From Rhodocollybia butyracea (taxonomy: Eukaryota; Basidiomycota; Agaricomycetes; Agaricales; Omphalotaceae), in assembly GCA_015501585.1 (NCBI GenBank), contig JADNRY010000276.1, positions 16,923 through 80,922 of the forward strand: DNA of 64,000 nt, read 5' to 3'. Below the pieces are notes generated by a model. The model searched no databases and was not told the DNA's origin. It worked only from the letters and a program-made list of their open reading frames with translations. The position numbers were made by a program, and so were the translations under genes. Below, one piece after another: positions 12,147 to 61,591 of the stretch. Numbering within the stretch: position 1 is the stretch's first letter; the number at the start of each line of letters is the position of its first letter.

Positions 12147-12172
12147 TTCTTTGACAATTTCCCTGTGTTCCT

Positions 12173-12218
12173 TCTTGTCATTTCCAAAAATTAGGTCTTG
12201 TCATTTCCAAAAATTAGG
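12173..12218 (-). repeat. 23-bp tandem duplication breaking pol
   Basis: Two adjacent identical 23-bp units (12173-12195 and 12196-12218) where copy 2 has one, just after the YLDD catalytic box. As 23 is not a multiple of three, the frame is lost and a stop follows. This single event separates the two halves of an otherwise open pol. Confidence 0.85.
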
Positions 12219-33275: not shown

Positions 33276-33853
33276 TAGTGATGTGCGGGCTGGGGCCGGG
33301 TTCAGGAGCCGCGGCCAAGGCCCACTCAGCCGCGGCCAAGGCTGACAAAAATCCTGAGCCCGGCCTTCCCCCAGGGCCAAGGCCGGCCAGGGCTGGGCTG
33401 AGGCTCAGGCCGCGGCTCAATGCCTTGTCCTTTTTGTTGGTGTATTGGTGAAAAACAAGTACATTGCGGTGAGTATTAGTAAGTAATTCACTCACAAACA
33501 TATAATTAGAGTCATACACCTCACAATTATGCCAGTATAAGCTCATGGGTAGTCACATAAAGTGACATCTGTTCCATCAAAACCCAATATACACTTGTGA
33601 TTATATAGTTTGAGCCCATGTATAGAGGGAATAGTCAAATAGACCGAGATTTAATGGAACATAGAAGGTTTGTATCCTATCTAGGCCACGATAATCCTTG
33701 AATTCACTCATTAATCCCAGTGCTGATGGCCCCGGCTGAAGGCTCAGAGAAATCTTCAGCCCGGCCTTGAGCCCTGCTTGAGCCTTGCCAAGGTCAGGTC
33801 GGGCTGGGGCTCAGAGGGCTCGAGGGCTCAGAGCCCTGGCCCGCACATCACTA
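33276..33853. mobile_element. GC-rich hAT-type MITE, family C copy 1
   Basis: 578 bp with 15-bp inverted termini TAGTGATGTGCGGGC and a perfect 8-bp target duplication AAACCGAC (33268-33275 and 33854-33861). Both ends carry dense GGCC/GCCGCGGCC and GGCTCAG words; the middle is AT-rich. It shares termini and subterminal design with the elements at 40797-41411 and 42350. No transposase encoded. Confidence 0.92.
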
Positions 33854-40690: not shown

Positions 40691-40796
40691 CAATATATGT
40701 AAAATACAATTAAAAGAATGTGTCACATGGACGTATGTAAGTAACGTAATGAAAGCAGAAAATATTCTGGTTTCGTTATGGCATGAATCCACGAAC

Positions 40797-41411
40797 TAGT
40801 GATGTGCGGGCCAGGGCTCGGAGCCTTTGAGCCTCTGAGCCCGGCCCTACTGAGCCCCAGCCGTCCTGACCTTGGTAAGGGCTCAAGAAGGCTCAAGGCC
40901 AGGCTGAGATTTTTCTGAGCCTTCAGCCCGGGCTTGAGCCGCGGCCTTCAGCACTGCAAATCATTTGTTAGTTGAGAGATTATTGAAGGTCAAATTGGAC
41001 ATATTTCTTCTAATTTTACTAGTCTTAGGCCACTTTGACGGCACCAGTCATACATGGGCTTAATATAGACAATCAGCAGTGTATATTGAGTTTCAATAGA
41101 ACTGATATCACTCTGTGTGACCATCCTATGAACCTCTATTTGCATGTTTGTGGGGTGTTTGACTGTTATATTGTTTAGTACTGAGAGGATTACTCACTAA
41201 AGGGTGACTAATATACCCCATAAGGAAGGTTTTTTTGCGCTCTATGCTAATATAAATCACAGAGCGCTGAGCCGCGGCTTGAGCCTCAGCCCAGCCCTGG
41301 CCGGCCTTGGCCCTGTGGTAGGGCCGGGCTCAGAATTTTTGTCAGCCCTGGCCGGGGCTAAGTGGGCCTTGGCCGGGGCTCCTGAGCCCGGCCCCAGCCC
41401 GCACATCACTA
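40797..41411. mobile_element. GC-rich hAT-type MITE, family C copy 2
   Basis: 615 bp with the same 15-bp termini TAGTGATGTGCGGGC as copy 1 and a perfect 8-bp target duplication CCACGAAC (40789-40796 and 41412-41419). Subterminal regions are rich in GGCTCAG and GGCCGGGGC words. The 73-codon ORF inside is a product of the GC-rich end and not a gene. Confidence 0.92.
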
Positions 41412-41523
41412 CCACGAACGTATAGATGACATAACAAGATAAGATCATTGAATTTTAACACGTGCTCCGTTTGAATGCAAAGGGTCCAGTGTCGAGAAAA
41501 GTCTCCTTGAGAGACTATTCCTG

Positions 41524-42330
41524 ATGGATTGGGCCAGTATAGAGAAGAAATTCTCTTTGAATCTTCTGCTTAATTGTTTTGCTTCTGGGCATCTTCACCA
41601 TAGGAAATGTGCTGCTTCAAGTGAGCCTATCAAACGGAAAATCAACCTTCCTGCTACAGTGACAGATCTCTCAGTAAAACGCCCAATGCTCCTCTATCAT
41701 GATAATGCTCCTGATATCCAAGAGAGGCCTCAATTAGAGTTGTCCCATCTAATATCAACCGTAGGAATGCATCAGAGTATTTTCTAGGGCTACTGTGCCA
41801 GATTCTGGAAAGGGTTGGGTGCACTAAAGCCGGTCAAGCCTACTGGAAGCTGACTGCTATGGAAAGAAGAGTAGTCAGCTTGGACACCTTTTGTGACATG
41901 AACCTTGGAACGTACTTTTACGTCATACCAATACACAAAAACCCCAAGTGACTGGGCATCATTGAAAACAATCCTCTTCCCTGGACCACATGACACTCCC
42001 CCCTCAATTAGTGATCCAAATGTTCAGGGATGGAGAGGTGTGCCTTATTACTGCAAACTTCTGGAACTTTGAAAAATAAACCCCGTAGAGTTCGACTATG
42101 TTCGCAGGACCTGTCTGGCACTATTTGACACCTTGAAATGGTTTATCAAAGTGCAGAGTCATAAAATGATTGAATATAAACTGCGATCAAGTTGGACCTT
42201 ATGTTTGCTGGTTCATTGCAGACCGGAGTTCCAATTACCATCAATCCAACCATTACAACTCGTGTTACATCCAAGGCAAAAAAATCCCCTGTTCTTGACC
42301 AGGATGCTCTTCATACACTGAGCAATATGT
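41524..42330 (+). pseudogene. Decayed orphan-family gene
   Basis: The coding frame can be followed from MDWASIEKKF (41524) through a likely intron near 41755-41775, then ASEYFLGLLCQILERVG, VSLDTFCDMNLGTYFYV, a one-base frame change near 41945-41950 (KNP to SDWASLKTI), DTPPSISDPNVQGWRGVPYY, a TGA at 42070-42072 and VRRTCLALFDTLKWF. It resembles another Agaricomycete family of unknown function found near transposons. A GC-rich MITE remnant follows at 42350. Confidence 0.45.
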
Positions 42331-42349
42331 GATGCCTTGAAATCACAAT

Positions 42350-42425
42350 TAGTGATGTGCCGGCTAGTGCTCAGAGCCGTTGGGCCCTACTTAAGTGGGC
42401 CTGGCCCCAGCCGTCTCTAAGAGCC
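42350..42425. mobile_element. Truncated end of MITE family C
   Basis: Begins TAGTGATGTGC, then CGGCTAGTGCTCAGAGCC and a GGGCCTGGCCCCAG segment, the same terminus and subterminal style as the two complete family C elements. The other end is missing. Confidence 0.6.
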
Positions 42426-42558: not shown

Positions 42559-42840
42559 TCATTCAACATCACTCAATGAATTGAGCCCGAGTTCAGCAGC
42601 TACCCATGTCTTATGGTCAGGAGAACCAAGATCAGAATAGTAAATGTACGTATCAGCTTTTCTGCAGTCCATAAAATTGCTACCCAGTTCAATCCTCTGT
42701 CGACGTGTCAACCATGATATCTCCTGCATAATACTCTGAGCCTTCTGCAACCTGGCCGCATCCTCAGGGCTAACATTGATAGCTGCAGCTAGCCTAGCTT
42801 CTTGGTTCCACCTTCAAACTTTGTACCAAAATTATTGAGT
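42559..42840 (-). CDS. Hypothetical protein C-terminal exon
   Basis: A continuous minus-strand frame with LTRRQRIELGSNFMDCR, YIYYSDLGSPDHKTW and a short tail ending at 42559, extending upstream of the first Met to about 42840. It has the look of real coding sequence, but I do not recognise a domain. It stops about 340 bp from the LTR that begins at 42898. Confidence 0.35.
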
Positions 42841-43287
42841 CCAGCACTCAAAGTATGAGCCGATTTGAAACTTTTTGATACCATTTTCGAGGAGGGATGT
42901 CATGATATGACCTCGCCCCTATACGGCGTCTACTTACGCTATATACGTAGCTAGTCCCTGTTATGACCCGGATCTAAATCCTATACACCCAATCTTTTTT
43001 CTTCTGTAACCAACTATGAACACTATCATTAATACTTCTACTTAACATTTTACATTCATTAGTTATTCAACACCATTTGGGTTAATGCTGCACACATTCT
43101 TCCAGAACACCAGAATGATCTTTAACAGTCACTGCACAGTCTGCACAGTCATGACATCATTCTAGCTCCACAACTATGATGTCATCTTGCTACTCCACAA
43201 TCATGATGTCATTCCATTGCTCCGCAGTTATGATATCACATCACTGCTCCACAGCTATGACATCATTGCATAGCCTCTTTACATCAA

Positions 43288-43422
43288 TGACTCAATATCA
43301 GTCATTGCACAGCCAGATATCTGAGTCAACTACGGTTCCGCATACATGACTCAATATTAGTCATTGCACAGCATTACATAGTCAGACTGACTCATCCGCA
43401 GTATTTCCGCAGTTATGACTCA
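43288..43422 (+). promoter_or_regulatory. Cluster of five bZIP (Gcn4/AP-1) type sites
   Basis: Perfect TGACTCA or TGAGTCA heptamers at 43288-43294, 43322-43328, 43347-43353, 43388-43394 and 43416-43422. They are preceded by several ATGATGTCAT/ATGACATCAT words (43150-43265), and the last site is 47 bp before the TATA box. Such sites are bound by fungal bZIP activators of the Gcn4/Cpc1 type, which respond to amino-acid starvation. Function here is inferred from position. Confidence 0.55.
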
Positions 43423-43468
43423 AATCTAGTCATTCCGCAGCATTTCCTAACTAGTACACATTGCACAG

Positions 43469-43476
43469 TATATAAG
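43469..43476 (+). promoter_or_regulatory. TATA box of the 42.9-kb LTR
   Basis: TATATAAG immediately downstream of the bZIP-site cluster, giving the LTR a plus orientation and placing the hairpin array in the predicted transcript. Confidence 0.5.
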
Positions 43477-43576
43477 TAGTCTAGATTTACCAATGTACGT
43501 TAGACGTATTATTTTTCTTAAATCCAAACCCCCACTTGTTTGCTGTTATCACTTGTGTGAATCACCAGACCAACTC

Positions 43577-44022
43577 ATTGTATATTGTTGAGCTATCTCC
43601 AAGTTACAATACACATTTATACATCTTGTTGAGCTAACTCCAAGTTGTATCCACTAACATTCACCTGTTGAGCTATCTCCTAGTGAATACTTCTTTAATT
43701 GCCACTTGTTGAGCTATCTCCGAGTTGCAACTTCCTATTACTTGTTGAGCTATCTCCAAGTATTAGACATCACACTCACTATTACTTGTTGAGCTATCTC
43801 CGAGTACTAGACACCACACTCACTATTACTTGTTGAGCTATCTCCAAGTACTAGACACCACACTCACTATTACTTGTTGAGCTATCTCCGAGTACTAGAC
43901 ACCACACTCACTACTACTTGTTGAGCCATCTCCGAGTATTAGTTCTGATTCATATTACTGCTTGTCGAGCCATCTCCAAGGGTAATCTTATTATTATTTG
44001 TCGAGCTATCTCCAAATAATAA
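43577..44022 (+). repeat. Array of eleven covarying hairpins
   Basis: Eleven units, each a stem of about 10 bp closing the 12-nt loop TTGAGCTATCTC (variants CGAGCTATCTC, TGAGCCATCTC, TGAGCTAACTC). Spans: 43577-43610, 43619-43650, 43659-43688, 43699-43730, 43735-43766, 43779-43810, 43823-43854, 43867-43898, 43911-43942, 43954-43986 and 43991-44022. Stem sequences differ widely, yet each left arm stays complementary to its own right arm, for example TTATTATTTG/CAAATAATAA in unit 11 and ATACATCTTG/CAAGTTGTAT in unit 2. GAG and CTC inside the loop can pair, leaving a TT bulge and a CTAT tetraloop. Units 6 to 9 repeat with a 44-bp period. The pattern indicates a selected RNA structure. Confidence 0.8.
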
Positions 44023-44387
44023 CTTCTGTGAGTTTCGTATTACAAACTAGTTACTAACTTTACTTGAGCCTAGTTGTTTGAGTATATATTTTTTGCCTAG
44101 CGGTTTCAACGAACGGAAAGGCTTGCTCTATAATCTCATTAATTTCTCTTATCATTTTTACTGCCGAGTTACGTACTGTGAAGGTTTGGACGAGACTATT
44201 GATCGAGTCATAACAGTCCCGTACTTACATTCTTCTTATTGTTGTTGTCTTCGTCGTCTAGGTATGATACCTTACAGTACAATAGACACACTACTAATAC
44301 AAGAACTTCGTCGTCTAGGACATCTTCCACGCTTTGCGCTGCATTCAGGTCTGAACCTGACACTACAACAACAATCCAAAAGCCAGG

Positions 44388-44615
44388 ATGGCAGACCCTT
44401 TGGACCCATGGAGCCAAAACCCAAATCCACAATCCTCCACTCCCTCTTCATCCAGATCCTGGACACCAGTGTCATCGGTAGGCTCGGACTCTCAATTCAC
44501 AGCGCGCTTGCAAGCAATTCAGTCTGTTCAAGCAGAGGTTGCAACAGTGGGATCTGAGATGTCGAAGTTGCCAGGTGGAAGTAAGTGGACTGAAGGACAG
44601 GATGGGGATAGTTGA
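44388..44615 (+). pseudogene. Gag N-terminal fragment
   Basis: 75 codons starting MADPLDPWSQ, rich in Ser/Pro/Gln, followed by a helical stretch (ARLQAIQSVQAEVATV) and a stop. Its position about 170 bp after the LTR fits the start of a retrotransposon gag. After the stop the similarity is lost; only decayed sequence follows up to 45278. Confidence 0.45.
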
Positions 44616-45278: not shown

Positions 45279-45511
45279 TTAGTAGGTGCTAAAGAACCGG
45301 TGTAACTGGGGGAGTTATGATTCTGAGAACCTGTTGTACTTACAGTTAACAGCAAGCTTATATACCTATCCAAAGACTATTACTATAAGTAGATACTATT
45401 CAAAAGGAAACGAGTAAGTAACAAGCGAGGAGACTATGATAAGATAAGTAAATGATAAGGAAAGTGTAGGCGCCGATGGGCGCTAGAGTCAAGAATAACC
45501 GTTCCGTTACA
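45279..45511 (-). repeat. 3' LTR of second gypsy element
   Basis: 233 bp, read on the minus strand TGTAACGGAACGG...CACCTACTAA. Next to it on the inner side is GGAGGGCG, a plausible polypurine tract. Its outer side continues CA, so the end could also be read as ...CTACTAACA. Confidence 0.85.
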
Positions 45512-45577
45512 TACGCCCTCCAGAGATCGTCCACGGGGATCTCTCTTCCTCTCTTACCACCATCCATGGCTAACAGG

Positions 45578-46703
45578 TCAAATATTCTTCATTGACATGT
45601 CGCTATTATCAATGCTGGCCGGAGTTTTGGGATTGTTAGGCAGTGAGGGCGGTTCCGGGTAGAAACCGAAGTCGTCGGTGACTTTCGGGTTCATGGACTG
45701 GATCATCGCGTCCAAATGCGATTCGTTGGCAGGCGTGAGTCTTCCTGACAAAGACCCGGAATTCTGAACTGAATTTGTCAAGGAGGAAGTCGAGGCGATA
45801 TTAGGAATTGAATGGATTCCAAAGGGTGGCAAAGGAGCGTTGGGAATGGATCCAAAGGATAGGATGGTATTGGTTTCGGGAGTAGATATGTTAGGTGAGT
45901 GATCTCTCGAAATGTAATGACCTTTCTGACGAGTGTTCTTTCCCTTTTCCATTCTAGTGTTTCTGTTGTTTACAGTAAAACCTTGTTCCGCCCCTGTAGT
46001 AGCAAGCGACCATATAAAGTTTGTTTCTTTTCATCAACCCTTGATAATCCCAGAGGGCGCAGGATGGGAGGCTGGCCATTGCCTCCGCAAAGGAATACCG
46101 CGAACATTTCGCGTTTACGGTTGGCACTGGAGTGTAAATGACGCCGGTTTCAAGATTGAACATGGCAAGTTTTCCTTGAACTAACGGATCGCTATTCACT
46201 TGTTCGGCAAAAAACGGATATACGGCGGGGATGTCCAACCTGGTGAGGCTGGTCTCCGGTTTTCGCAGCTGCGTATCAAGGTCAAGACAGCTCCAAACTT
46301 CCCGAGCATCAAGGAAGAAGGTACATCCGTGGTATTGGAGTAGGATTTTGTTGTTCCGGCCTTGCTGAAGCCAGTCAAGAGGGCGAGGTGATGATGAGTT
46401 TGATGATGTGTTGTTGGTGCTGGCCATGAAGGGGATTCCTAGAGAAGATGTGAGCGTTGAAAGTCCGTACTTATGGGTTTTCTCTGTTTCTGACCCTGAA
46501 TCTTTCAGGTTAATTTGCATGAAACTAACGAGTAGCGCAGATGCAGCCACTGTATCATCATTCGGATCCAAATTCGGATCTGCGACGTCGATGCGCCCTC
46601 CATCCGTAAGCTCACTAATGTCCAAAATTCCGATTACCTGGAAATAATTGCTGAGCGCATCTAGATGGTCAATTTTTTTCATAGGGTAACCAGGTAAGAT
46701 CAC
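45578..46703 (-). pseudogene. Pol C-terminal extension of second gypsy
   Basis: Continues the integrase reading after a one-base extra A at 46673-46679 (YEK then IDHLDALSNYFQVIGI). It is open to 45954, with a further ORF at 45578-45952. The TWLPY...YF pattern resembles the C-terminal module of Tf1/sushi-type integrases. The later part (Ser/Thr/Asn-rich, then SRYSFAEAMASLPSC) is not recognised. It may be a single extended ORF or two. Confidence 0.45.
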
Positions 46704-47860
46704 CAGATTTCCACTTTATCTGGAATAGTGCATTTGCCCTGGTTCCGGAGTGGGCAACGATGTGATCCACAGCCCACTCCCCTTCGGATTCGCCAAAGTC
46801 CGCTATTTGTGTCTCGAGTCGCCCTGGGAAGAGACGGTCATCATTTGGGATATGGATTCGCAACAGCGACGCGTGAAACGCGTTGTGAACACCTCGTTGC
46901 TTCAGCCTAGAAGGTAGGTCCATCTTAAAGGTAGAATTTCCGAAGTCCTTTAGTATTCTGTATGGCCCGGTAAACTTCGGTACTAATTTCCTCCCGTATC
47001 CTTTAATAAATGATATATTTTTAGTGGAAATGTAAGCCAGATCTCCTTCCACAAATGGAACAGCTCTACGGCGCCGATTAGTGTCATGAATTTGTTTGAC
47101 TCGAGCATTCAAGATGCTATCATGCGCCTGCATGACTGCCAGCTTCATCTTCTGAGCATATACTCGAATTCCGGGATATTCATTCTGATCCGCGGAGTTC
47201 CATAGGAATGAACGGGGCATCCGACCCGGATTCAAGAAGAATGGTGAGTATCCGGTTGTCTCTGAGCGTGCCAAATTAATCGCAAAAAGTTTCGTAACCC
47301 AGTCTCTCTGGTCAATAGCTATCCACTGACGAAGCATCTGGGTGACAGTGCGGTTTGCGCGTTCCGTCGATCCATCAGTCTCGGGATGGTACGCTCTGGA
47401 CATCTTCAATTCAATGATGCGAAAACAAGCTCAGCAATCTGTTTCGCTTTGTAGGTTGTTTTACTAGGAATACAGTGTACCATTCCTGTTAGTAAATCAA
47501 TGACCACCGTAATCATATCATACGTTCTGTTGCAATCTTTTGATTCTGGCAAAGGACCAACAAAGTCCATCGCAATCGACTCCCAAGGATAACTCGGGAC
47601 TGGTAGCGAATTCAGTAGCCCGTAAGGTCGGGCATTATTTGGTTTGGTGCGCTTACACGTACTGCAAGTCTCACAGTACGCGCCGACATCTGAAGCTATG
47701 TCTTTCCACCAGACATGGTCTCAAAGGTAATCCGTTGTCTTTCTGGCACCAAGGTGAGCCAATAGTGAATGTGCTTCATCAATGATACATTCCTTAATGC
47801 TCTGACCATTCAAGGTGAGTTTCGGGATGCACAAGACTTTCCGGTCTCGCAATTTCAGAT
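46669..47860 (-). pseudogene. Integrase of second gypsy, active-site deletion
   Basis: Zinc-binding region (DEAHSLLAHLG ... CETCSTCKRTK), then the core with the first catalytic Asp (AMDFVGPLP). After KAKQIAELVFASLN the sequence jumps to KMSRAYHPETDGSTERANR. Family members normally have about 40 residues between these points, including the second catalytic Asp in a VSDRD-type motif. That block is deleted, with a frame change at 47409-47420. A TGA at 47721-47723 also interrupts the N-terminal part. The enzyme cannot be active. Confidence 0.7.
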
Positions 47861-48241
47861 ATATCAGACCATTGGAGACCTCGAAGTTACGAAACTCCTT
47901 AGGTTTGTCAATAATCTTCTGAAATGTTGTATCGTTCTTGTCAGGATTACTTCGAGATCAAGCTTGGATTGGCTTGCAGCCAATGCAGTGAGCAACGACA
48001 TATTTGTTGACTCTTGTGGAATCACAGGTACTGGTTCAGCATCTAATTCAGAACCAGATGCATTCACAGGACTAGTTCCCTGCTCTTCCAAAATTGAAGG
48101 TAATGTCTCACTGGTTTCAGGATTTTCAGGCAAGTTCAGTACTGAATGGGTACTTCCGCCCTCCTTTCGTACTTCACGGGGACCATGCAAGACGAAACGC
48201 TTGCCCTTCATCCGACGAGCAAATTCCCAGCTGGTTTCCAC

Positions 48242-49873
48242 TCACTTTCCAGCATTCCAAGTGCTCATAGCAAACAACTCGGGCATCATGGATGCGGCTT
48301 CAATGCCAACAAGCACCGGCATGGTAACATCATGCTGGAGCAAAACATCGTTGTCAATGACATTGTGGTATGTGTACTCACTACGCGCACGTACTGTGCC
48401 TGGCTTATCATTAGAATAGATCCGTGACAACGCATCAGTGAGGATGTTATCCTCGCCTGGGACATACACCACCTCATAGGCGAACTCGGAGATCTTCTCC
48501 AACCAACGTGCTTGTCTCCCAGACAGATCTTTTTGTTTTAGCAAATGGACAAGGGCTTTATGGTCAGTGATCCACTTGAACACAACACCCTGTAAGATAT
48601 CACGGTGCCGTAGCATTGTTTCACCGCCTGCTAACATTTCAATTTCATGAACAGAATAATTTTGCTGAGCTGGGTTCAGCTTCGCAGAATAGAATGCCGC
48701 CGCTCTGGCGGTCTTCCAATTATCACCCTGACATACGGCACCGCCAACGCCAGTCGCACAACCGTCAGTGATCATCCAGACAGGCGGGGCATCCGTAGCG
48801 TAGCTCAACGGGACCCGATGGTGATCTTTCGCACCACCTGCCAGGCGTTTGACATCCTCAAATGCATGTTGCTCAACGTAAGTCCATCGGAACGGGACTG
48901 TGTCGCCCGTGATTGAACTCAGATGTCCCATAGGTATCCGTACCAAGCCAATATCATCAGCAAGATAGCCCACGGACCCCAGAAAACCTCGAAGAAGATC
49001 GCAATTCGTTGGGGTCGGCCATTTTAATATAGCATCAACTTTATGTGGGTCCATCCGGATCCCCTTATCATTGATAATACATCCTAATACCTTGAATTCC
49101 TTGGGCAGGAAATGGAGCTTTTCCTTACTCAGATAAAGCTTTTCACGTTTCAGAATGTCAATTATCAATTTAACATATTTTACGTGGTCCTCCAGCGTTT
49201 CAGAGTAGATGACTATGTCATCAAGATATACATCCATGAACCAACCAATATATTCTGAAAACAGATAGTTCATGAGCGCCTGGTAAGTCGCTGGGGCGTT
49301 ACAATTGCCTATCTGGATAACCAGACTCACCATATTTCCATCAGGTGTAGTCACAGCAGTGCGTGGCACATGCTCAGGGATGATACGGATCTGTTCATAG
49401 GCATCTTTCCCATCAATAATTGAATGATATTTTGCACGAGCAACTCGCCTTTTGATTCCCTCAATATCTGGCATTGGGGATGAGAGCTTCCGGGTATTGC
49501 CATTACAGGCTCGTAAGTCAACAACAACGCGTAGTTTTGTACTGCCAGGTTTGGGAATTAGCAACATAGGTACAGTATTGCTTGAGCTGGTAATTCTCCA
49601 CCTACCAGAGCGTAAGTAAGCATCCCGTTTCTCGGCCCACTGGCTACGAAATTTCTCCAGACATTTTGAGGGCCGCCAAGGCAAGATCTTCGACTCGTCA
49701 ATTAGAGGTATGCTGTGATTGATGGTTCGTAGAGGAGGTAAGTCTGAAACTGGGCTTTGATTCCCCAATTGATTTTTGAACGAGATCCTTGCACAGCAAG
49801 CTGCAGTGGCAAAAGGTTTAGTTAATTCTATTTTTTTGTAACCCGAGCTGGTCTGCAAAGGTCGATGATACAA
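48242..49873 (-). CDS. Reverse transcriptase-RNase H of second gypsy
   Basis: A 543-codon frame: PMLLIPKPGSTKLRVVVDLR, IIDGKDAYEQIRI, NCNAPATYQALM, the catalytic VYLDDIVIYS, VLGCIINDKGI and the thumb LRGFLGSVGYL; then RNase H with MITDGCATGVGGA, SVHEIEML, WITDHKAL and a final LTDALSRIY. It joins the protease in frame only if one A of an A7 run (49831-49837) is ignored, and ends at a TGA (48242-48244) after which the reading simply continues (VETSWEFARRMKG). Confidence 0.85.
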   Translation of the reverse strand: MYHRPLQTSSGYKKIELTKPFATAACCARISFKNQLGNQSPVSDLPPLRTINHSIPLIDESKILPWRPSKCLEKFRSQWAEKRDAYLRSGRWRITSSSNTVPMLLIPKPGSTKLRVVVDLRACNGNTRKLSSPMPDIEGIKRRVARAKYHSIIDGKDAYEQIRIIPEHVPRTAVTTPDGNMVSLVIQIGNCNAPATYQALMNYLFSEYIGWFMDVYLDDIVIYSETLEDHVKYVKLIIDILKREKLYLSKEKLHFLPKEFKVLGCIINDKGIRMDPHKVDAILKWPTPTNCDLLRGFLGSVGYLADDIGLVRIPMGHLSSITGDTVPFRWTYVEQHAFEDVKRLAGGAKDHHRVPLSYATDAPPVWMITDGCATGVGGAVCQGDNWKTARAAAFYSAKLNPAQQNYSVHEIEMLAGGETMLRHRDILQGVVFKWITDHKALVHLLKQKDLSGRQARWLEKISEFAYEVVYVPGEDNILTDALSRIYSNDKPGTVRARSEYTYHNVIDNDVLLQHDVTMPVLVGIEAASMMPELFAMSTWNAGK

Positions 49874-50060
49874 AATCCCCGAGAGATCCCGTATCTATCA
49901 ATGCACGCGCTGGGTGCCCATTCAATTTCACAACCACCACTAGTGGTTTGGGAATCTGACGTGAAAAATCCTTCGTTATAGCGGCGTTGCGCTGAACGGC
50001 AGGGTAAGTACCCTTGGGCACCTGAACACCATTTAACTCAATAGAGTAATTTTCCCAGTC
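49818..50060 (-). CDS. Aspartic protease of second gypsy
   Basis: An open frame that starts within the gag end in another frame (IELNGVQVPKG) and carries the active-site ALIDTGSLGDF with the DTG triad. It is closed after LGLQKNRIN by the A7-run shift; removing one A continues directly into the reverse transcriptase (LGLQKIELTKP). Confidence 0.7.
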   Translation of the reverse strand, partial: DWENYSIELNGVQVPKGTYPAVQRNAAITKDFSRQIPKPLVVVVKLNGHPARALIDTGSLGDFVSSTFADQLGLQKNRIN

Positions 50061-52378
50061 TCGGGAGGTTGCGTGTCATGCTGCTCAGACACAAACAAAT
50101 CCTGTAAGAACAATCTTGGTGTGAAGTAACATGCTTCATGGTCCTCACATATCTCCTGATATGCGCGGACTAGCTGCTTGTGGTACCACCGGATTAAATC
50201 AAATTTGCGGTTCCGCATGTGACTTCTTGGTAGTACCGCACAAAATTCCAGGTGTGCATCGAGAATCTGGTAATTCTCGGAATTGTATTGTTCAACATCG
50301 AATCGGAAGATGTCTTCTTCTTCAGAGTCACCAAGATATGGTTCACCAAGTCCCAAGCATTTCACAATGCCTAGTTCATAAGGTTTTTCCATCCTATGTA
50401 ATTTTAGGATTTCAAAATCTCGAAGACGAACTTTCCCATCCGTCATTCGAGCCCGTTCCAACGCATACCAGTAGGGTAACTGGAAATCAGGGTCCTCAAG
50501 CTGTGTCAAGTCACAGTACACATCTTCGAAGTCCTCAAAGTCAGGATGAATTTCTCCGAAGTAATCTGAATCGCTGATATAGTATTTCTTCCCATGGGGA
50601 GGAGGTTTCTTTCCCTTCGCCAAGACGGGCTGATTCAGATTGTTATTGCTTTTTCCGCTACTGGAACTCATGGTAGATTTGTCCGATTTTTTCTTTGGCG
50701 GTTCATCTCCTGGATCAACATTCTCAATAATTTCAATGAGTTCAGCCGCACTGGCAATCTCATTGTAGGACGAGTACTCAGGATTGGGCTTCTCTCTCCA
50801 GAGACCTTTCTGGATTTTTCGGTTCAACCCAGACCATAATTTATGTACCTTTTCACGCTCGTCAATAAGTCCAATGGTGTTGAACAGATCATTGAGTTTG
50901 GCAAGGTAATCGCGCACAGATTTATCATTCTGGAAGGTGCGCTTCAATTTGCGGCGTTGGTCCAGTCGATATGTCAACGGGAAGCAATAATTGTATAGCT
51001 CAGTGAAGAACTTTTTGAGTCTCCAATCAAACGGAGAGTCTGCGACGGAGGTCAGGTAAAACTGATAAGCTTTTCCTTTCAGATATTTGGAGAGTTTTAA
51101 TACTCGTCGGTTTCTTGGTACATAGCCATCACGAACATAGGCCGTACCTTCCGTTACAAACTTAATGAAGGCTCGTACATCGACAGATCCATCATATGAT
51201 TCTGGTGGGTCTGGTTTAAGCAACATTTTTTGTTTCTTTTTAACACTTCGCCGCTTACGGTGCTTCTCACGGCGCCTATATTCGGAATCGGAAGATTCTG
51301 AGCTTGTGTCACTCTCCGAGTCATCGGAGTCTGACTCTGACAAAAAACTAGAATCGTCACTGGAAGAGCTGGAAGAAGAATCAGATGATCCCCCGGGATT
51401 TCCCCGATTGCCATTCTTATGCTTCCCGGCTCGTTTCTTGTTTTTGGCCGGTGTCAGTAATTTTGCCAAGTGGTTGGTAGGAGGTAAAAGTTCGCTCGGG
51501 CGCACAACATGCCCAATGCCTTGAACTGGCAGTTTCTTTGAGCTTTTCGGCCTCCTAGGCCATTGCTCAACAATATCCCGAATATGGGATTCAACCAGGT
51601 CAGTTACTGCTTCTGACCCTGCACGGTGGTTCACCCGTTTCTTGGGTTTCTTTGCCTTAATTTTAATTTTCTTAGGCTTATCCCCTTCTACTGGGGTATT
51701 TTCGGCATCACGGAGTGCTCTAAAATTTTCAAGAGCCTCTCTTTGATTGTCAAGATTGACATCACTATCCGACATATCGGAAATATTGACCGCTCCCCAA
51801 TTCTTTGGGTCCGGTCCCTTCCCTTTGTCTCGAGAAGCCCCTTCTCCCCTCGAGGAGACAGACTCATCACTGCTCTGGTCATTGCCAGCAGCGTTATTCT
51901 CAACGACCTTCATGCGTCGCTGGATTGCCTTTCGTTGGGCTTGAGAGAGCTGCATTTCGGCTTCCTTAATAGTGGCTCCTTGAGCCATGGTCAACGGTAC
52001 GGGTTTCTTGGCCCATGCCTGCCGAGCAATTGGTTTAACAATATTCGCAGGGCGTTCAAAGTTTCTATTGGTAAAACTACTATCCAAGCTTGTGGCTCTA
52101 CGACGAGAACCATGATGGACAGTAATCCACTCATTTGTATCATCGGCGAGGTCATTAACCGTGACCTCCGGCGACGATTGCTGAATGCCTTTGACAGCAC
52201 CAGCCCAATCTCTTTCGGAGTTCAAATGAGATTCCGTTCCTGCCTGGGGGCTCAGTCCGCGGTTAGCAGTCTGATCATTCCCAGCAGTGACCTCTGGCTT
52301 TTGAAATTGCGCAGGGCCGTGTCGAAGGTTGTAGCAACTATTGTCGCGGTGTTGTTGGGTTGTCGAGTTGTTGGTCAT
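50033..52378 (-). CDS. Gag of second gypsy
   Basis: 781 codons, MTNNSTTQQH at the start. The N-terminal half is disordered and charged, with a basic KPKKIKIKAKKPKKR segment (possible nuclear signal) and a Ser/Asp run with SESDSDDSES. A retrotransposon capsid domain lies around residues 420-570 (PPESYDGSVDVRAFIKFV, YNYCFPLTYRLDQR, LNDLFNTIGL, HKLWSGLN). It has no zinc knuckle. Unbroken despite the damage in pol. Confidence 0.85.
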   Translation of the reverse strand: MTNNSTTQQHRDNSCYNLRHGPAQFQKPEVTAGNDQTANRGLSPQAGTESHLNSERDWAGAVKGIQQSSPEVTVNDLADDTNEWITVHHGSRRRATSLDSSFTNRNFERPANIVKPIARQAWAKKPVPLTMAQGATIKEAEMQLSQAQRKAIQRRMKVVENNAAGNDQSSDESVSSRGEGASRDKGKGPDPKNWGAVNISDMSDSDVNLDNQREALENFRALRDAENTPVEGDKPKKIKIKAKKPKKRVNHRAGSEAVTDLVESHIRDIVEQWPRRPKSSKKLPVQGIGHVVRPSELLPPTNHLAKLLTPAKNKKRAGKHKNGNRGNPGGSSDSSSSSSSDDSSFLSESDSDDSESDTSSESSDSEYRRREKHRKRRSVKKKQKMLLKPDPPESYDGSVDVRAFIKFVTEGTAYVRDGYVPRNRRVLKLSKYLKGKAYQFYLTSVADSPFDWRLKKFFTELYNYCFPLTYRLDQRRKLKRTFQNDKSVRDYLAKLNDLFNTIGLIDEREKVHKLWSGLNRKIQKGLWREKPNPEYSSYNEIASAAELIEIIENVDPGDEPPKKKSDKSTMSSSSGKSNNNLNQPVLAKGKKPPPHGKKYYISDSDYFGEIHPDFEDFEDVYCDLTQLEDPDFQLPYWYALERARMTDGKVRLRDFEILKLHRMEKPYELGIVKCLGLGEPYLGDSEEEDIFRFDVEQYNSENYQILDAHLEFCAVLPRSHMRNRKFDLIRWYHKQLVRAYQEICEDHEACYFTPRLFLQDLFVSEQHDTQPPETGKITLLS

Positions 52379-52545
52379 TTTGTTGGTTGTTGATGTCGGT
52401 GTCAGTGTCCGCGTTGATCAGACGAGGAGTGTGCCGTCGAAGACAGTTAAGAGAGTATTAAAGAGTAGAAAGAATTATATGTTGGAGAAGGAAGGTTGGA
52501 GAGAAGAGCCACAAAAAGATTTTTTCGAAGCTGAGCTTGTAGAAT

Positions 52546-52778
52546 TTAGTAGGTGCTAAAGAACCGGTGTAACTGGGGGAGTTATGATTCTGAGAACCTG
52601 TCGTACTTACAGTTAACAGCTAGCTTATATACCTATCCAAAGACTATTACTATAAGTAGATACTATTCAAAAGGAAACGAGTAAGTAACGAGCGAGGAGA
52701 CTATGATAAGATAAGTAAATGATAAGGAAAGTGTAGGCGCCGATGGGCGCTAGAGTCAAGAATAACCGTTCCGTTACA
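52546..52778 (-). repeat. 5' LTR of second gypsy element
   Basis: 233 bp, three substitutions from the 3' LTR (at the CCTGT(T/C)GT, CAGC(A/T)AG and AAC(A/G)AGCG positions). The leader to gag follows at 52379-52545. Confidence 0.85.
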
Positions 52779-55163: not shown

Positions 55164-55581
55164 TGTCACAGATTTCTATTCATTTGCTTTATCTTATATT
55201 TTATCTTATCTATCAATATCTTATCTGTGCCATGGGCTTATCATTACATTAGATCTATATCTTATTTATTACTTAAAGTAGATAGATACCAGATGTATTA
55301 CTGTCTAACCTTGACAGATGGTGACACCTTTTGACAGATAGTTTCACCTTGACAGTAGAACCTTCTAGAACTACCCAGAGTAGGTAGAACCTTCTGGAAC
55401 TACCCAGAGTAAAGTACTCTGGGTCCTATTTAGTTACACATGTATATAAGTAGTGGGGTCTGCTCCTACAGTCCCCAGACTCAAGAACATCTTATTGTCT
55501 TCATACAAGCATCTCTCTCTCACACTTAGCTTCTTACTTCCCCTATCAACACATTAAGCAGGTGAGCTTAGATTTGTGATA
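55164..55581 (+). repeat. 5' LTR and promoter of copy 2
   Basis: 418 bp. Against the 437-bp LTR of copy 1 it lacks 19 bp within the TGACAG repeat region. It carries two perfect heat-shock elements (55357-55371 and 55386-55400), the ACCCAGAGTA palindrome, TATATAAG (55443-55450) and a CAG|GTGAGC splice donor at 55559-55567. Confidence 0.93.
55357..55400 (+). promoter_or_regulatory. Twin heat-shock elements in LTR
   Basis: 55357-55371 reads AGAAC CTTCT AGAAC and 55386-55400 reads AGAAC CTTCT GGAAC: each is three contiguous alternating nGAAn/nTTCn pentamers, the consensus bound by heat-shock factor trimers. The second ends 43 bp before the TATA box. Function is inferred; both are also present in copy 1, while the 3' LTR of copy 2 has lost one. 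Confidence 0.6.
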
Positions 55582-56148
55582 GTTTCTTGAGTCTTGCTGC
55601 TTTGCTGCCTGTTGCTACTGCATCAGGTGGTAGGTTCATTTGTTGCAGGTTGTCCAGTCTTTCTTCTGTCATCTTTGGGTCCTGGGGGATTACTGTCAGT
55701 TCTGGGGGTTATTGCCAGTTCTGGGGGATCTTTGATGCTGTTCCTGAAAAGGACTGTGTCTTCTATGGGATGCACCTTCTCCTTGAAGGGTGGCTCAACT
55801 CTGAGAGCTGCATGCTGACCTATTTGCCGGGCCCTAGGCATAAGGGGTATTTGCTGCATTTTAACTTTATTGTTGAAGGATGCAACAGACTGGTCACTGC
55901 TCTTGTCACTCAGCATGCCATGAGCCTTCGGGTATCGACGGCTAAACCAGTTTGGGCAGATTGAGTCGCTTGTGTTATACAAGGGCCAAAACCCATTTGC
56001 TATGTGAAAGTGCACACATAGAGACTTGCCACTTTGACGAAGAAGACATCAAGACCTGGACAACCACAACACTGGACACCACCTTTTCCCTTGTACTCTG
56101 TCTGCTGAAAAGCAACGTTGTACTTATGCCATTTGCCACAGTGCCACT
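55582..56148 (+). other. 5' leader of copy 2
   Basis: Transcribed leader between LTR and pre-gag ORF. A 125-codon sense frame (55587-55964) lacks an ATG start and differs from copy 1 by a 20-bp duplication near 55694-55735, so I do not call it a gene. A tRNA-type primer-binding TGG is not obvious after the LTR end. Confidence 0.4.
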
Positions 56149-56871
56149 ATGCCAAAACAGTACCATGATCGCCGAACCTTTGCCAGAGATATTAATACTG
56201 GTCTATATGAACGCATCATCATTCATAGGGCAACACGCCAGAAGTTTGCCCGAGTGGGGGCGCCACGCCGCATCACAATCCCTTCCCAACTCCCTCCAAA
56301 AATCCGTCCACTTACCCTAGAGGAACGGATCTCCTTCTCTAACTACCATGAAGAGGAGAGAAACACACTCAGCCTTCTGTCTCGCCTCACCCAGGAAAAA
56401 TCCAAATTGGAGGACAGAATTACCAACTCACCAACTCCCCTTGTTGATCGGATTACAGACCCACTTCCCTTTCCATCCATTCACATTCCTCCTCCTATCC
56501 CTTCAGAAATCAAATTCCGGAAGGAGAAATTCCTATGCCGCATCAAGGAATTCCGACCAATGGTCTTAGCCACTATAAATCGGTACCTCCCTCTGTTTGA
56601 TCTATTAAATGAGGATGATGAAATGGAATGGACTGGAGAATCATTCAGGGTCCCTCATGATACTCGGAATGAGTTATGGAGATGGTTTCTAGAATTACAG
56701 AGATTTGAGATGGACATGAATTCTGTAGGACACACTCTCACTCATGCACAGTGGAGACAACTCAAAAGGGAACTTAAGCGGCTGGGGAAGTTTGAACTAA
56801 AAAGTCTAAATAGTCAACTCCCTGAGATTTGTACTGCACTCATGGCATTAGATATCACACTACCACTATAA
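56149..56871 (+). CDS. Pre-gag ORF of the chromovirus
   Basis: 240 codons from MPKQYHDRR to a stop just before the gag leader. The N-terminus is basic (HRATRQKFARVG), the middle proline-rich (IHIPPPIPSE), and the C-terminal 100 residues predominantly helical and charged (RNELWRWFLELQRFEMDM, WRQLKRELKRLGK). No zinc finger, protease or known retroelement accessory domain seen; function unknown. Copy 1 keeps only its first and last codons, so the ORF is ancestral and was deleted there. It lies within a predicted intron (55562-56965), so unspliced RNA could express it and spliced RNA gag. Confidence 0.65.
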   Translation: MPKQYHDRRTFARDINTGLYERIIIHRATRQKFARVGAPRRITIPSQLPPKIRPLTLEERISFSNYHEEERNTLSLLSRLTQEKSKLEDRITNSPTPLVDRITDPLPFPSIHIPPPIPSEIKFRKEKFLCRIKEFRPMVLATINRYLPLFDLLNEDDEMEWTGESFRVPHDTRNELWRWFLELQRFEMDMNSVGHTLTHAQWRQLKRELKRLGKFELKSLNSQLPEICTALMALDITLPL

Positions 56872-56967
56872 ATTGTACTTGGCATAAAATTAATTGGCAC
56901 TTTATTTTTTCAATCCTAACTTTGTTTTTTTATCACAAACACATTGGCTAATTACCATTAAGCAGAA

Positions 56968-58443
56968 ATGTCATCTTTCACACCTTACCAACCTAACATC
57001 TCGATGGTTGATGTAGAGAACTGGGCTGAAAGTGTAGCTCAAAATGTGGATATGACTACTATTGGCTTTGGTTCTGAAGCCCAACGTAATGAGGTTGGAC
57101 GGTTATTCCGAAATGCCCACTTGACAACTAGTAGCACTGTTAAAAATTATGTTGACCAACATATTGATGAGCTTTCTGATTGGATGAATGAAGCTTTTAG
57201 TATGGCTGCTCATACCCAGGATGCTCTCAAGGAGGAAATTAAAAACCTCAGGCAACTAGTTGACACACAGGCCCAACTTCTTCAGGCCTATAAAACCCAG
57301 TTGGATAGAATCCCTGCTGGAACTGGTGCTGGCTCCATCACTAGACTTAAAGTCCCTGAACCACCAACATTCTCTGGGACAGATAACAAAATGTCACTGG
57401 AGGATTGGTTAAATCAAGTCACTCTGTATTGTTCATCATCTGGCATTGTGACAGATCACCAAAAAATTGTGACTGCACTGACTCGCTTACGTTCACCTGC
57501 CACAACATACATGAAGCGCTACTTTGATGATAACCGTCTTGGAAAAGACTTGGGACTTTGGGATAAATTTGTAGAGGAGTTAACCACTATTTATGGCCGC
57601 CGTGATGACAAAGAAGGAGCAAAGGATGAGCTCACTCAGCTTTGGACCAATAAAACTTTGGCCAATAAGGACTTCATTAAATATGCTGAACAATACCGCA
57701 CTTTGGCACGCCTTGTTGAATATCAAGACAATATCCATATTGACAAGCTGCGGAATGTTATCTCACAAGAATTGCGTAATGCACTTGTGCTACTTGAAGT
57801 TGTAGGAAAATCACCTACCAAATGGGAGGAGTACTTAGAGCTTCTCCTGTTGGCCTACAAAAGCTTACATCCTGAGAAAACTAAAGGCTCTATTTTTGGC
57901 ACTGGAAACAGTAAAGGCAATGGCAATGGCAACAATGATCCACAACCTATGGAGATTGATATGGCAAAAAGAGGGAAGGGTAAAACACCAGAACAAATAA
58001 ATTCCCAGGAGACAAAAGGCAAACTTTGCCAAATATGCTCTGCAAAGGGTTTGAAATTCAAAGCAAAAAGTCATAATACCAATGACTGCTATGACAAACC
58101 TGGGAATGAGAATAAACGCCCTGCTCCTAAACCCTCTAATTCAACTTCATCAACCAGTGGACAGGGACATAAAGGAAAGCAGCCTGTGCATGGAGATAAA
58201 AAATCATTCAAAGCACGGCTGTTGGAATTATTTGATGAACTTGACAATGATGAGTCAGCAACCCCAACTGAAACTCTCAATGTCAATCATGCGAGCATCA
58301 CCGAAATTGTCGAACCCATGCCATCTGAAAAGAGGGCAACTGCACAAGTCAATGATGTGCAGGAGGGAACTTCAAAACTGAAAAATCAGCCCAAGTGGGT
58401 CAGAAGTCGACAATACGAAGTGGATTTTCCACAAGGACTGTAG
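56968..58443 (+). CDS. Gag polyprotein, copy 2
   Basis: 491 codons, nearly identical to copy 1 gag (one clear difference, NSTSST for NSTPST). Same capsid domain and C-x2-C-x11-H-x4-C motif. The ATG follows a CAG acceptor-like site by 2 nt. Intact, in contrast with the damaged pol. Confidence 0.92.
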   Translation: MSSFTPYQPNISMVDVENWAESVAQNVDMTTIGFGSEAQRNEVGRLFRNAHLTTSSTVKNYVDQHIDELSDWMNEAFSMAAHTQDALKEEIKNLRQLVDTQAQLLQAYKTQLDRIPAGTGAGSITRLKVPEPPTFSGTDNKMSLEDWLNQVTLYCSSSGIVTDHQKIVTALTRLRSPATTYMKRYFDDNRLGKDLGLWDKFVEELTTIYGRRDDKEGAKDELTQLWTNKTLANKDFIKYAEQYRTLARLVEYQDNIHIDKLRNVISQELRNALVLLEVVGKSPTKWEEYLELLLLAYKSLHPEKTKGSIFGTGNSKGNGNGNNDPQPMEIDMAKRGKGKTPEQINSQETKGKLCQICSAKGLKFKAKSHNTNDCYDKPGNENKRPAPKPSNSTSSTSGQGHKGKQPVHGDKKSFKARLLELFDELDNDESATPTETLNVNHASITEIVEPMPSEKRATAQVNDVQEGTSKLKNQPKWVRSRQYEVDFPQGL

Positions 58444-61400
58444 AGGAGAATGTCTGTGATCTACAGTCTGGAAATTATATACCTAATATCAGCCTTAATA
58501 ATAATGAAGTAGTTCTGGAATCTTGTGTAAATAGTATAGCTCGTAACAATAAAATGTCATTTAGACTTCCAGTAACACTTTGGGTATATGGTACAAAAGC
58601 GCAGGCCGAGGCTCTTGTTGACTCTGGGGCCACAACAAACTTCATTGACAAAGCATTTGTTGAAAGAAATCACCTGGTAACTGATAAATTGGCAAAACCG
58701 TATCCAGTATTGAATGCGGATGGAACACCTAATGTAGCAGGAGAAGTGAGTGAATATGTCAGTGCCTACCTTGAGATTGGCACACATAAAACCCGTCAAA
58801 TCCTGTTTGTCACACAACTTGGTGATAAGGATATGATGATTGGTTACTCCTACCTGTATAAACATAATCCAGAAATTAACTGGAAATCAGGGGAATGGGT
58901 TATCCAATTCCCCGGATCTCTGATCTGGTTGATGCACTAAGCAGGCATCAATCTTCACAAAAATTGATTTAAGATGGGGATACAATAATGTCCGCATTCG
59001 TGAAGGGGATGAATGGAAGACAGCATTCATTACTAAAAGGGGTCTTTTTGAGGCAACTGTCATGTATTTTGGGTTCTCTAATGCACCTGCACATTCCAGT
59101 CTATGATGAATGACTTATTAGGTGATCTCATCAGGAAAGGGCAAGTTATGGTGTATTTGGATGATATCCTAATTTTTGGAAATGACAAGAAGGAACACAG
59201 GGAAATTGTCAAAGAAGTGCTGAAAAGGCTTCAAGACAATGACTTGTATGCAAAAGCTGAAAAATGTTTCTTTGAACAAGATAGCATAGAGTACCTTGGC
59301 ATGATCATCTCTCAAGGTTATGTTGCAATGGACTCAAAGAAGCTGTCTGGAGTTCTAGAGTGGCCTGTACCTGAAAAGGTCAAGCATGTTCAAGGCTTTC
59401 TTAGGTTTTGCAAATTTTTATCGCAGATTTATCAAAGATTTTGCTAAACTTGCTCAACCACTCACCAATCTCACCAAGAAGGATCAACCTTGGATCTGGG
59501 AAGAGGAACAGCAACAGACATTTGAAGCACTGAAACAAGCTTTTACCTCTGCCCCAATCTTAAGGATCCCGGATGACTCTAACCCATTCCGACTATCAAC
59601 TGATGCAAGTGACTTTGCAGTTGGAGCAGTTTTGTCTCAACTGGACCCAGATGAAAATCTCTGGCATCCAGTAGCCTTCTATTCCAAGTCACTCAGTGTC
59701 CATGAAAGGAACTATGAGATATATGACAAGGAGCTCCTAGCAATTATTAGAGCACTAGAAGAGTATAGACATTATTTGGAAGGGCATCCAGAGAAATTTG
59801 AAATATGGTCAGATCATCAGAATTTGACTTACTTTAAATCAGCTCAAAAGTTAACTCGGAGACAAGCACGATGGGCTCTGTACCTCACAAGGTTCAATTA
59901 CTCCCTACACCACAAACCAGGGAAATCAATGCAAGCCGAAGACCCTCTGTCCAGGAGGCCAGATCATGAGAAGGGGATAGACCTTGATAACAATGACCAA
60001 ATTTTGCTCAAACCTGAATTTTTTGCCATTCAGGCTATCGAGGCATCTCATGCATCACCTGTCAATGACGATCAAATCCTAAGAGAGGTCAAGGAAGCAC
60101 TACTTTCTGATGAAGTGACAAAGGATTACAAGTCACTGCTCAAGTCAGGACCACGAGAGTTTAAGAAATCTCTAGAAGAATGGAACTATGAAAATGGTCT
60201 ATTACTTTACCGTGGAAAAGTTTACATACCAAAGAGCACAAATGATCACTTGCGACGACGAATTGTTGAAATCCACCATGACATAACCTCTGCAGGACAT
60301 CCTGGCAGATGGAAAACATATGAACTCATCTCTAGAAATTACTGGTGGCCAGGGATGTCAATCTTTGTAAAGCATTATGTCACAGGTTGTGACACATGTC
60401 AGCGGATGAAAAAACCGCCCACAAAAGCCTTTTGGGACCTTACAACCAAACATGGTGCCTAATGGACCATGGGAGATCATTTACCATTGATCTGATCACT
60501 CAGATACCAGAATCTAATGGGTACAATGCAATATGTGTAGTGGTGGGACCGCCTATTAAAAAGGGCACACTTCTATCCCATTACAGTGAAATTTTCGGCC
60601 AAAGATCTGGCACAACTACTCTATGACAGGATCTATCCATTGCATGGACTACCATATTACAGATCATCTCTGACCGAGGACCACAGTTTGCAGGGGAGAT
60701 TTTTCCAAGAATGGGTGCAAACTACTTGGAATTCAATCCACAATGTCTACTGCATACCACCCACAGACAGATGGTCAAACTGAATGTGTTAATCAGATTT
60801 CTGGAACAGTACCTTAGGTGCTATGTTGATTATAATCTCAGTGATTGGGCAAAACTGTTAAGTACAGCAGAATTTGCCTACAACAACTTAGCACATGAGG
60901 GCACAAAGGAGAGTCCATTCTTCTTGGAATATGGACGTCATCTCCGTGCAGGTCCAACATTATTAAAGGAGGGTCTTCCAATTGACCTAAATGACATGAT
61001 GCAAAGAAGATTTGAAGCCCAAGAGCAGGCAAAAGCAGCTCTAAAGTTAGCAGCTGAGCGGATGAAATGGTACTATGACCTGGGTGTACAGAACATTCCA
61101 TTCAAAGTTGGAGACCTTGTATTACTAAATCTCAAGGACTACCAAACTACAGAACAAGCACTCCGGCCTCGATATGAAGGACCATTCAAAATTATTGAAA
61201 AGTTGTCTGAAGTAACATTCAAACTGGAGTTGCCAGAAAAGTACCGTGCAATACACCCTGTATTTCATGCCAGCAAACTAGCCACCTATAATGAACCAAC
61301 TATTGTTGGGCAAAAGAGTCCCACACCTCAACCAGTTACAATTGGTGGACAAGAGGAGTGGGTTGTGGAAGAAATTCTCCAACACAGAGTTCGTGGAAAA

Positions 61401-61550
61401 ACCACCCAATACCTTGTACGATGGAAAGGATTCACTCGTGATCATGATACCTGGGAACCTGAAGGAAATTTAAGGAATGCTCAGGAGATGATAAGAAAGT
61501 ACAAAGCAAAAGGCCTCAAAGCTGTGAGGATGATGGAATTTGATGATTAA
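58395..61550 (+). pseudogene. Pol of copy 2, deleted and frameshifted
   Basis: Begins in the -1 frame inside the gag end. The protease part (VDSGATTNF) is intact to about 58905, where the sequence jumps from GEWV to the [11 protein letters not shown] region of reverse transcriptase, deleting about 600 bp present in copy 1. Further one-base changes follow (near 58944, 59093, 59394, 60412, 60485, 60548, 60700-60715, 60802), so the rest is split into ORFs at 59103-59447, 59386-60462 and 60711-61550. These retain YLDDILIF, RNase H, integrase and chromodomain motifs. The last ORF, ending in the chromodomain, is undamaged. Confidence 0.9.
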
Positions 61551-61579
61551 ACTCTGATTTCTCAACGGAGCTCAAATCT

Positions 61580-61588
61580 AAAGGGGGG
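61580..61588 (+). promoter_or_regulatory. Polypurine tract, copy 2
   Basis: AAAGGGGGG, 3 bp before the 3' LTR; one G shorter than in copy 1. Confidence 0.7.
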
Positions 61589-61591
61589 TGA

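Follow-up and report, generated by a model that had tools for sequence, protein, structure and literature searches.

Retroviral packaging signals, such as those in the MLV and HIV leaders, contain several stem-loops, and to our knowledge the ways in which an RNA 5′ end is brought to a primer-binding site (PBS) hundreds of bases away, and an RNA is marked for packaging, are known in detail for few elements. In the accessible parts of the published reports, Tf1 and its relatives are described as self-priming, with the RNA 5′ end complementary to the PBS (PMC4600332, PMC7175516, PMC10085805). Self-priming was also proposed for Tcn1 (PMC7175516, as far as its accessible text goes); for SM-Tcn1, the accessible text of PMC2864245 states that neither tRNA priming nor self-priming was found. 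Here, we analyzed an array of eleven hairpins with a near-invariant loop located at positions 43577–44022 (+ strand) of the window, by which we mean the whole 64,000-nt stretch of Rhodocollybia butyracea contig JADNRY010000276.1. Our preferred reading, which we regard as moderately probable, is that the array belongs to the R-U5 leader of a Ty3/gypsy element that self-primes, where it would fold the leader and probably bind Gag.

The array is contained in a 1257-bp solo LTR (TGTTATGAC...GTCATAACA; 42959–44215, + strand), the ends of which match those of L031, a complete copy of the element, and which is flanked by GTCCC target-site duplications at 42954–42958 and 44216–44220. On the + strand, a TATA box (TATATAAG, 43469–43476) is located 33 nt upstream from the predicted RNA 5′ end, where the predicted self-primer AGACGTATTATT starts (43502–43513), and the folds of other copies placed the two arms of a U5-IR-like duplex, TCCAAACC and GGTTTGGA, at 43523–43530 and 44183–44190, bearing out the original prediction of an LTR leader downstream from a TATA box. 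In complete copies, the PBS AATAATACGTCT lies directly 3′ of the 5′ LTR; the window copy is regarded as a solo LTR because no PBS of its family is found 3′ of it, and the array thus stands there without its own PBS and gag downstream. The solo LTR was seemingly inserted within another element, represented by the flanks at 42800–42953 and 44221–44450; on the 5′ side, GAGGAGGGA-TGTCATGATATGACC resembles a polypurine tract joined to the start of an LTR, after which comes an ATG like that of gag (ATGGCAGACCC). Repeats in U3 (43141–43447) consist of the words TGACATCA/TGATGTCA/TGATATCA and TGACTCA, of which L031 has more; they resemble what we take to be bZIP sites (CRE/ATF and Gcn4/AP-1), and a stress-responsive enhancer is possible.

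Several other repeats were noted in the window. The minus strand carries a Ty3/gypsy element at 45279–52778 with LTRs at 45279–45511 and 52546–52778 (98.7% identical), gag at 50033–52417, and RT-RNase H at 48242–49894. Two copies of an ~6.8-kb element lie in opposite orientation at 9342–16151 and 55164–61982, their pieces being 94–99% identical and their terminal direct repeats ~0.4 kb long, with 100% identity in one pair and 93% in the other. A decayed satellite with the 11-bp unit TGTAGCCTATC and higher-order periods of 33, 44, 66, and 99 bp occupies 7376–9328 and 16158–16359, and the GC-rich stretches at 40794–42410, which contain several inverted repeats (among them GCCCCAGCCCGCACATCACTA), are related to 33276–33853 in reverse.

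The loops of the eleven units (43588–44012) all lie on the + strand and differ from TTGAGCTATCTC by two changes at most. The window contains 15 such matches in total, four of them scattered outside the array, compared to a mean of 6.0 in the shuffled window, in which 15 matches were reached in none of 100 shuffles. Thus, the eleven near-identical loops of the original prediction were recovered, and its coordinates and stem sequences were found correct on re-reading. The hairpins, all on the + strand, occupy 43578–43609 (hairpin 1), 43619–43650 (2), 43658–43689 (3), 43699–43730 (4), 43735–43766 (5), 43779–43810 (6), 43823–43854 (7), 43867–43898 (8), 43911–43942 (9), 43954–43986 (10), and 43991–44022 (11), with a unit spacing of 41, 39, 41, 36, 44, 44, 44, 44, 44, and 36 along the array. 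In straight register, the stems of units 1–11 pair at 8, 9, 7, 9, 9, 9, 9, 9, 9, 6, and 10 of 10 positions, with two inner mismatches in hairpin 3, an asymmetric inner loop in hairpin 10, which pairs well after a one-base offset, and a perfect 10-bp stem in hairpin 11. The predicted stems of about 10 bp are therefore present as paired structures but are not all clean 10-mers. Single hairpins have folding energies of −6.4 to −10.0 kcal/mol. Units 5–9 represent a single type expanded as a 44-bp repeat (hairpins 6–8 being the 44-bp expansion units), which leaves ~7 independent stem types in the array.

When the 3′ arms of the seven stem types were permuted, with unit 5 representing units 5–9, the true pairing of the arms ranked first of 5040 permutations, and this rank was unchanged without the shared inner CTTG/CRAG; with the outer arms alone, true pairing was reached by none of 20,000 shuffles. 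In the alignment of the 11 units (10 distinct rows), six of the ten stem pairs had changes on both sides, 85% of the pairing cells were paired compared to 72% in shuffles, and pairing fell to 35–46% when the partner columns were slid by 1–3. The claim that complementarity was retained across units was supported by the permutation rank and by these double changes. The covariation score of the alignment was reached by none of 500 shuffles, which, as with the other shuffle results, is not a probability because the array units have common ancestry. The number of pair types in the same alignment was ordinary, as 194 of 500 shuffles reached the observed count.

The sequence directly after the 5′ LTR of the element reads T-AATAATACGTCT, and AATAATACGTCT is the exact complement of AGACGTATTATT. 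A PBS for the CCA end of a tRNA would begin with TGG, which is absent at the start of the sequence after the 5′ LTR. Primer and PBS pair at 12 of 12 positions in 24 of the 35 loci with a recognizable PBS, at 11 positions plus a G-U pair in three, with one mismatch in six, and less well in two; the PBS variation is under-sampled in this set since 30 of the 35 loci were exact matches to the PBS search pattern. In L048 and L083, both primer and PBS were changed and full pairing was kept, although these double changes could represent CpG decay because both fall on CpG sites. Judged by its sequence, the element is of the self-priming Tf1/sushi type, with a PBS complementary to the RNA 5′ end, the latter being itself a predicted end. 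A second PBS-like word, GTCATAAAATAATRAWACATC, was observed at 23 of the 81 places listed by the PBS search, for example at L032:4870 (minus strand; C136), and lies ~2.9 kb 3′ of the true PBS in some copies (C136, C472, C495); it may have been left behind by an internal rearrangement or by template switching.

To describe the leader structure, 34 leaders of 509–715 nt from the primer to the LTR end were each folded with their own PBS; the 35th locus, L080, was left out of this set since its primer match failed. Of the 34 leaders, 32 formed the primer-PBS helix with a mean pair probability greater than 0.7. All 34 had at least five expected pairs between the stretch following the primer and the final 80 nt of the LTR, and in 32 the two arms of this U5-IR-like duplex matched TCCAAACC and GGTTTGGA exactly. 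In every folded leader, the array was located between the self-primer and the PBS, within the U5-IR-like duplex, and 240 of its 307 hairpins had at least five expected pairs; the middle units folded less reliably because near-identical neighboring units can pair together. In the whole-leader fold of L031, the 17–18-nt tail included after the PBS was unpaired, with no sign of the third pretzel duplex, which would involve the sequence directly 3′ of the PBS. These folds place the array in the loop of the structure named pretzel in the Tf1 literature. Taken together, primer, PBS, and arms strongly support a predicted leader in which the RNA starts at ~43502, the 12-nt primer pairs with the PBS, the U5-IR-like duplex lies inside this helix, and the array fills the remaining loop.

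Folding of the whole array compared to 100 shuffles per strand gave a z-score of −3.3 on the + strand and −1.0 on the − strand, and the folding energy of single units hardly differed between the strands. The similar energy of the hairpins possible on both strands, together with the factor-binding-like repeats that U3 has of its own, would agree with a feature acting at the DNA level, such as a cruciform, protein-binding repeats, or promoter architecture. We consider such a DNA feature very improbable, given that the array lies 3′ of the predicted RNA 5′ end and inside an ATG-free leader, that its stems vary where a fixed DNA site would not, and that the folding of the whole array is exceptional on the + strand only.

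The leader of the window copy (43502–44215, + strand) contains no ATG compared to ~10 expected, none of 2000 shuffles being as low, and the last upstream ATG is found at 43493, nine bases 5′ of the predicted RNA 5′ end. In a set of 35 leaders comprising 34 loci and the window copy, 28 had no ATG between the predicted 5′ end and the PBS, where ~10 were expected; six had a single ATG, which fell inside a changed primer or PBS in five cases, and L048 had four. The depletion was not matched in any of 2000 shuffles for each of the three leaders tested. On the opposite strand, ATG (read as CAT) occurred 9–13 times per leader. GAT was likewise rare (2), and AGT, TAG, TGA, and GTA occurred 9–17 times each. 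Taken separately, the array and the non-array parts both lacked ATG (P of 0.003 and 0.010), and the 75 nt 5′ of the array were uninformative by themselves (P of 0.41). The 540 nt 5′ of the leader contained 10–17 ATG, although U3 is not a neutral yardstick, being itself ATG-rich (15 compared to 6.5 expected in the window copy). The first ATG was located 9–17 nt past the PBS in 33 of the 35 leaders, at a distance of 17 nt (16 leaders), 12 nt (15), 16 nt (1), or 9 nt (1); the other two had no ATG in the stretch read after the PBS, including the window copy, from which this region is missing. In L031 and L032, this first ATG is the gag start, and we infer the same for the other leaders.

Read in the simplest way, the lack of ATG puts the array on the + strand of an mRNA 5′ leader that is probably scanned by ribosomes. 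The original prediction that the array belongs in the transcript is thus favored by the self-primer at the predicted 5′ end and by the ATG-free leader. We suggest that a transcript leader may be read in this way from genome sequence, as the ATG-free stretch extending from the self-primer to gag. The ATG-free leader up to 9–17 nt past the PBS (33 of 35) implies selection by scanning and would be compatible with translational control, in which hairpins of −6.4 to −10.0 kcal/mol act as mild brakes that slow or meter scanning to the gag ATG, or in which the array serves as an internal entry site. However, the array shares its place with the priming signals, and overall we view a role in translational control as distinctly unlikely. 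A leader with an internal ribosome entry site does not have to be free of ATGs upstream of the start, and the 28 of 35 ATG-free leaders, compared to ~10 ATG expected, speak indirectly against this form of the translational control element that had been proposed.

The array-bearing element is abundant in the genome. The exact loop TTGAGCTATCTCC had 992 + 853 = 1845 matches in the whole genome (95.6 Mb, 1381 contigs), compared to 0 + 2 matches for its reversed control, which corresponds to ~340 arrays by a rough division of 1845 by 5.47 exact matches per array, a value taken from a biased sample. Among 45 distinct arrays from the fetched places, counted after exclusion of clusters with fewer than four loops, the size ranged from 5 to 12 units and was most commonly nine (20 of 45). 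The complete copy L031 has two 1252-bp LTRs that are 100% identical and a 5-bp target-site duplication (ACAGG). Its internal region of 4.2 kb contains gag, the product of which matches PF03732 at 1.5e-6 and, in translation, shows a CX2CX4HX4C zinc knuckle. No pol was found among the seven ORFs listed for this internal region, of which the two long ones were scanned for domains. Based on the paired positions of PBS and polypurine tract, C1, C472, C574, C578, and C180 are short copies with ~3.4–4.2 kb of internal sequence, and C481, C591, C1012, and C496 are long copies with ~8.8–9.5 kb; the 8.7-kb span of C465 may be explained by an insertion since its gag lies in two far-apart pieces. The 9.5-kb copy C481 (L064), the LTR array of which has nine units, encodes RT, RNase H, and an integrase zinc domain in the Ty3/gypsy order, as read from one fetched piece (L105) inside this copy, the one copy examined for pol. 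Therefore, this LTR is common to the gag-only copies and to at least one copy with pol. Among the 120 pol relatives listed, several carry the chromodomain PF00385, and they include polyproteins named Tf2-9 in the source and one named Ty3-I; the Gag has eight relatives among public proteins, with six from Dendrothele bispora and one from Paramarasmius palmivorus.

The loop core AGC.A.CTC was nearly fixed across 101 distinct units and the stems differed, with the loop conservation biased upwards because the copies were fetched by the loop. The T of AGCT in the loop was replaced by C in 16 of the 101 units, and these AGCC loops make the previously suggested dimerization, which would proceed through AGCT kissing loops, a disfavored function. 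Outside CpG sites, the diversity among 50 copies aligned to the window LTR was 0.012 in the loop, 0.021 in the stem, 0.022 in the linker, and 0.033 elsewhere in the leader; U3 reached 0.17–0.22 in a poor alignment. Non-CpG single changes in the stems of orthologous units comprised 10 G-U, 10 A-C, and 23 other mismatch variants, with only two restoring double changes, and no RNA-strand bias was detected in the variation between copies of these orthologous array units. Once inserted, most copies thus seem to undergo neutral decay, and the covariation stems from the differences between units and between families. The variable number of units (5–12) argues against the need for an exact count.

The near absence of restoring changes and of strand bias, the expansion and contraction of the 44-bp unit, and the existence of a related family (F3) without such an array are the observations that would be expected if the array were a functionless by-product, that is, a U5 tandem repeat that owes the complementarity of its stems to template switching in the course of reverse transcription. 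This origin appears quite improbable to us: among the ~7 stem types, the true partners give the best pairing around a constant loop, the loop is the least variable part, a second related family (F2) has retained hairpins at this position, and 10 of the 11 window units retain a mismatch or an offset that correction from a template would remove.

The families F2 and F3 were recognized among 19 places with divergent gag (38–48% identity), the upstream stretch being examined at 18. At 14 of these 18 loci, the leader appeared to self-prime through other sequences, AGACTTCTTATT in F2 or (CTTT)AGTCTCTATATT in F3, with the primer at most 60 nt after a TATA box in 14 of 14 and the PBS preceded by CA-T, as at the LTR end of the array-bearing family (F1); L092 had one mismatch in the primer/PBS pairing. 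We regard this recurrence with other sequences as far stronger evidence of self-priming than the matched double changes in L048 and L083. No primer/PBS complementarity was found in L086, L101, or L103, with L101 covering 303 bp only. The F2 and F3 leaders contained no ATG in eight of 14 and a single one in six, compared to 4.1–7.8 expected. TTGAGCTATCTC within two changes was absent from the first four gag-related leaders tested. Between primer and PBS, the F2 leaders have a hairpin series of their own, closed by YTG/CAR and with loops such as AGCATATTC, AGCCTTTC, and ACGTCAATCC, and they partly share the YTG-A..C-CAR pattern with F1. Seven such hairpins were read from the fold of L090, two of which pair together in the minimum-energy structure, and four from that of L088. 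Between L088 and L091, one F2 stem stayed paired although a T-A pair was replaced by C-G in a double change and a C-G pair by T-G. The folds of the F3 leaders (320–330 nt from primer to PBS) showed assorted hairpins and no repeated loop; F3 self-primes without the array, which is thus not needed for self-priming as such. Searches with the pattern YTGAGCNNNTTCCARTA were barely enriched (16 matches compared to six for the reversed control). A search of viral contigs gave no match, the bacterial and archaeal genomes searched gave one, in a Vibrio contig and taken as chance, and Rfam covariance models had no match in 43300–44400 up to an E of 1.

The occurrence in F2 of hairpins with different stems and loops in the same interval, the freely varying number of units, and the position of the array between primer and PBS in 34 folded leaders are also compatible with a purely structural spacer, in which the hairpins shorten the loop between primer and PBS and no protein reads their loops. 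We find this rather unlikely, because a spacer leaves unexplained that the loop is kept while the stems differ between units, and that the YTG-A..C-CAR pattern is partly common to F2.

According to our preferred reading of the array as a leader-folding and Gag-binding element, each hairpin would remove ~32 nt from the 450-nt stretch, and this compaction would keep the RNA 5′ end near the PBS and away from wrong partners. Such a leader-folding step is supported by the position of the array and by its predicted folding. The kept loop (AGC..TC) would provide a repeated ligand site, and the CCHC Gag of the element itself is the most likely ligand, as we infer from the loop conservation and from general knowledge of Gag. 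The loops may gather Gag on the leader and couple packaging to self-primed reverse transcription, and the gag-only copies, sharing the LTR with the pol-bearing form, would use the same signal. In a more far-reaching form, which we put forward tentatively as a possibility, the leader would be a multivalent scaffold in which up to a dozen hairpins each bind Gag, making packaging, compaction, and the start of reverse transcription one assembly step while remaining passable for scanning ribosomes, with a version of its own in the related family. The ~340 arrays of 5–12 units, with ~7 stem types, a single loop, different sequences at the same position in F2, and no array in F3, constitute a natural series that makes the role of stem-loops in LTR-element leaders directly testable through unit counts and through stem or loop swaps. 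The interpretation made originally from the window was right about the LTR leader, the transcript, and the pairing, and missed that the copy is a solo LTR and that the array lies between a Tf1-type self-primer and the PBS.

Self-priming and leader stem-loops are both known, and the literature searched did not reveal a loop-invariant tandem array within a leader that self-primes; no hairpin array in an LTR leader was described in the titles and abstracts covered, most subscription papers being out of reach. By analogy, the array resembles the packaging signals of MLV and HIV in having multiple 5′-leader stem-loops near the PBS, with kept loops as possible Gag sites; it differs from them in that a single unit is present in as many as 12 nearly identical copies, which are located 5′ of the PBS. 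Tcn1 and the Tcn1-like chromoviruses of fungi and plants are comparable as fungal chromodomain gypsy elements with a self-priming proposal made for Tcn1, and a leader hairpin array is not mentioned in the accessible text of PMC2864245. A close likeness is also seen to the Tf1/sushi elements with a pretzel leader (Tf1, Tf2, Tj1, Tosmo, Tcry1), for which the accessible descriptions give an RNA 5′ end complementary to the PBS after the 5′ LTR, a further duplex between the leader and the PBS-proximal sequence, an LTR ending in CA, and a Ty3/gypsy pol. Further marks of this group are a chromodomain integrase, an RT in the Tf1/sushi clade, and RNase H cleavage of the RNA between nt 11 and 12. The present element shows the primer-PBS duplex in 32 of 34 leaders, the second duplex in 34 of 34, and the RT-RNase H-integrase order in one copy. 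The third pretzel duplex was not seen in one whole-leader fold with a 17–18-nt tail. The element differs from the Tf1/sushi elements in having gag-only relatives and, across 34 copies, a 509–715-nt leader with tandem loop-invariant hairpins.
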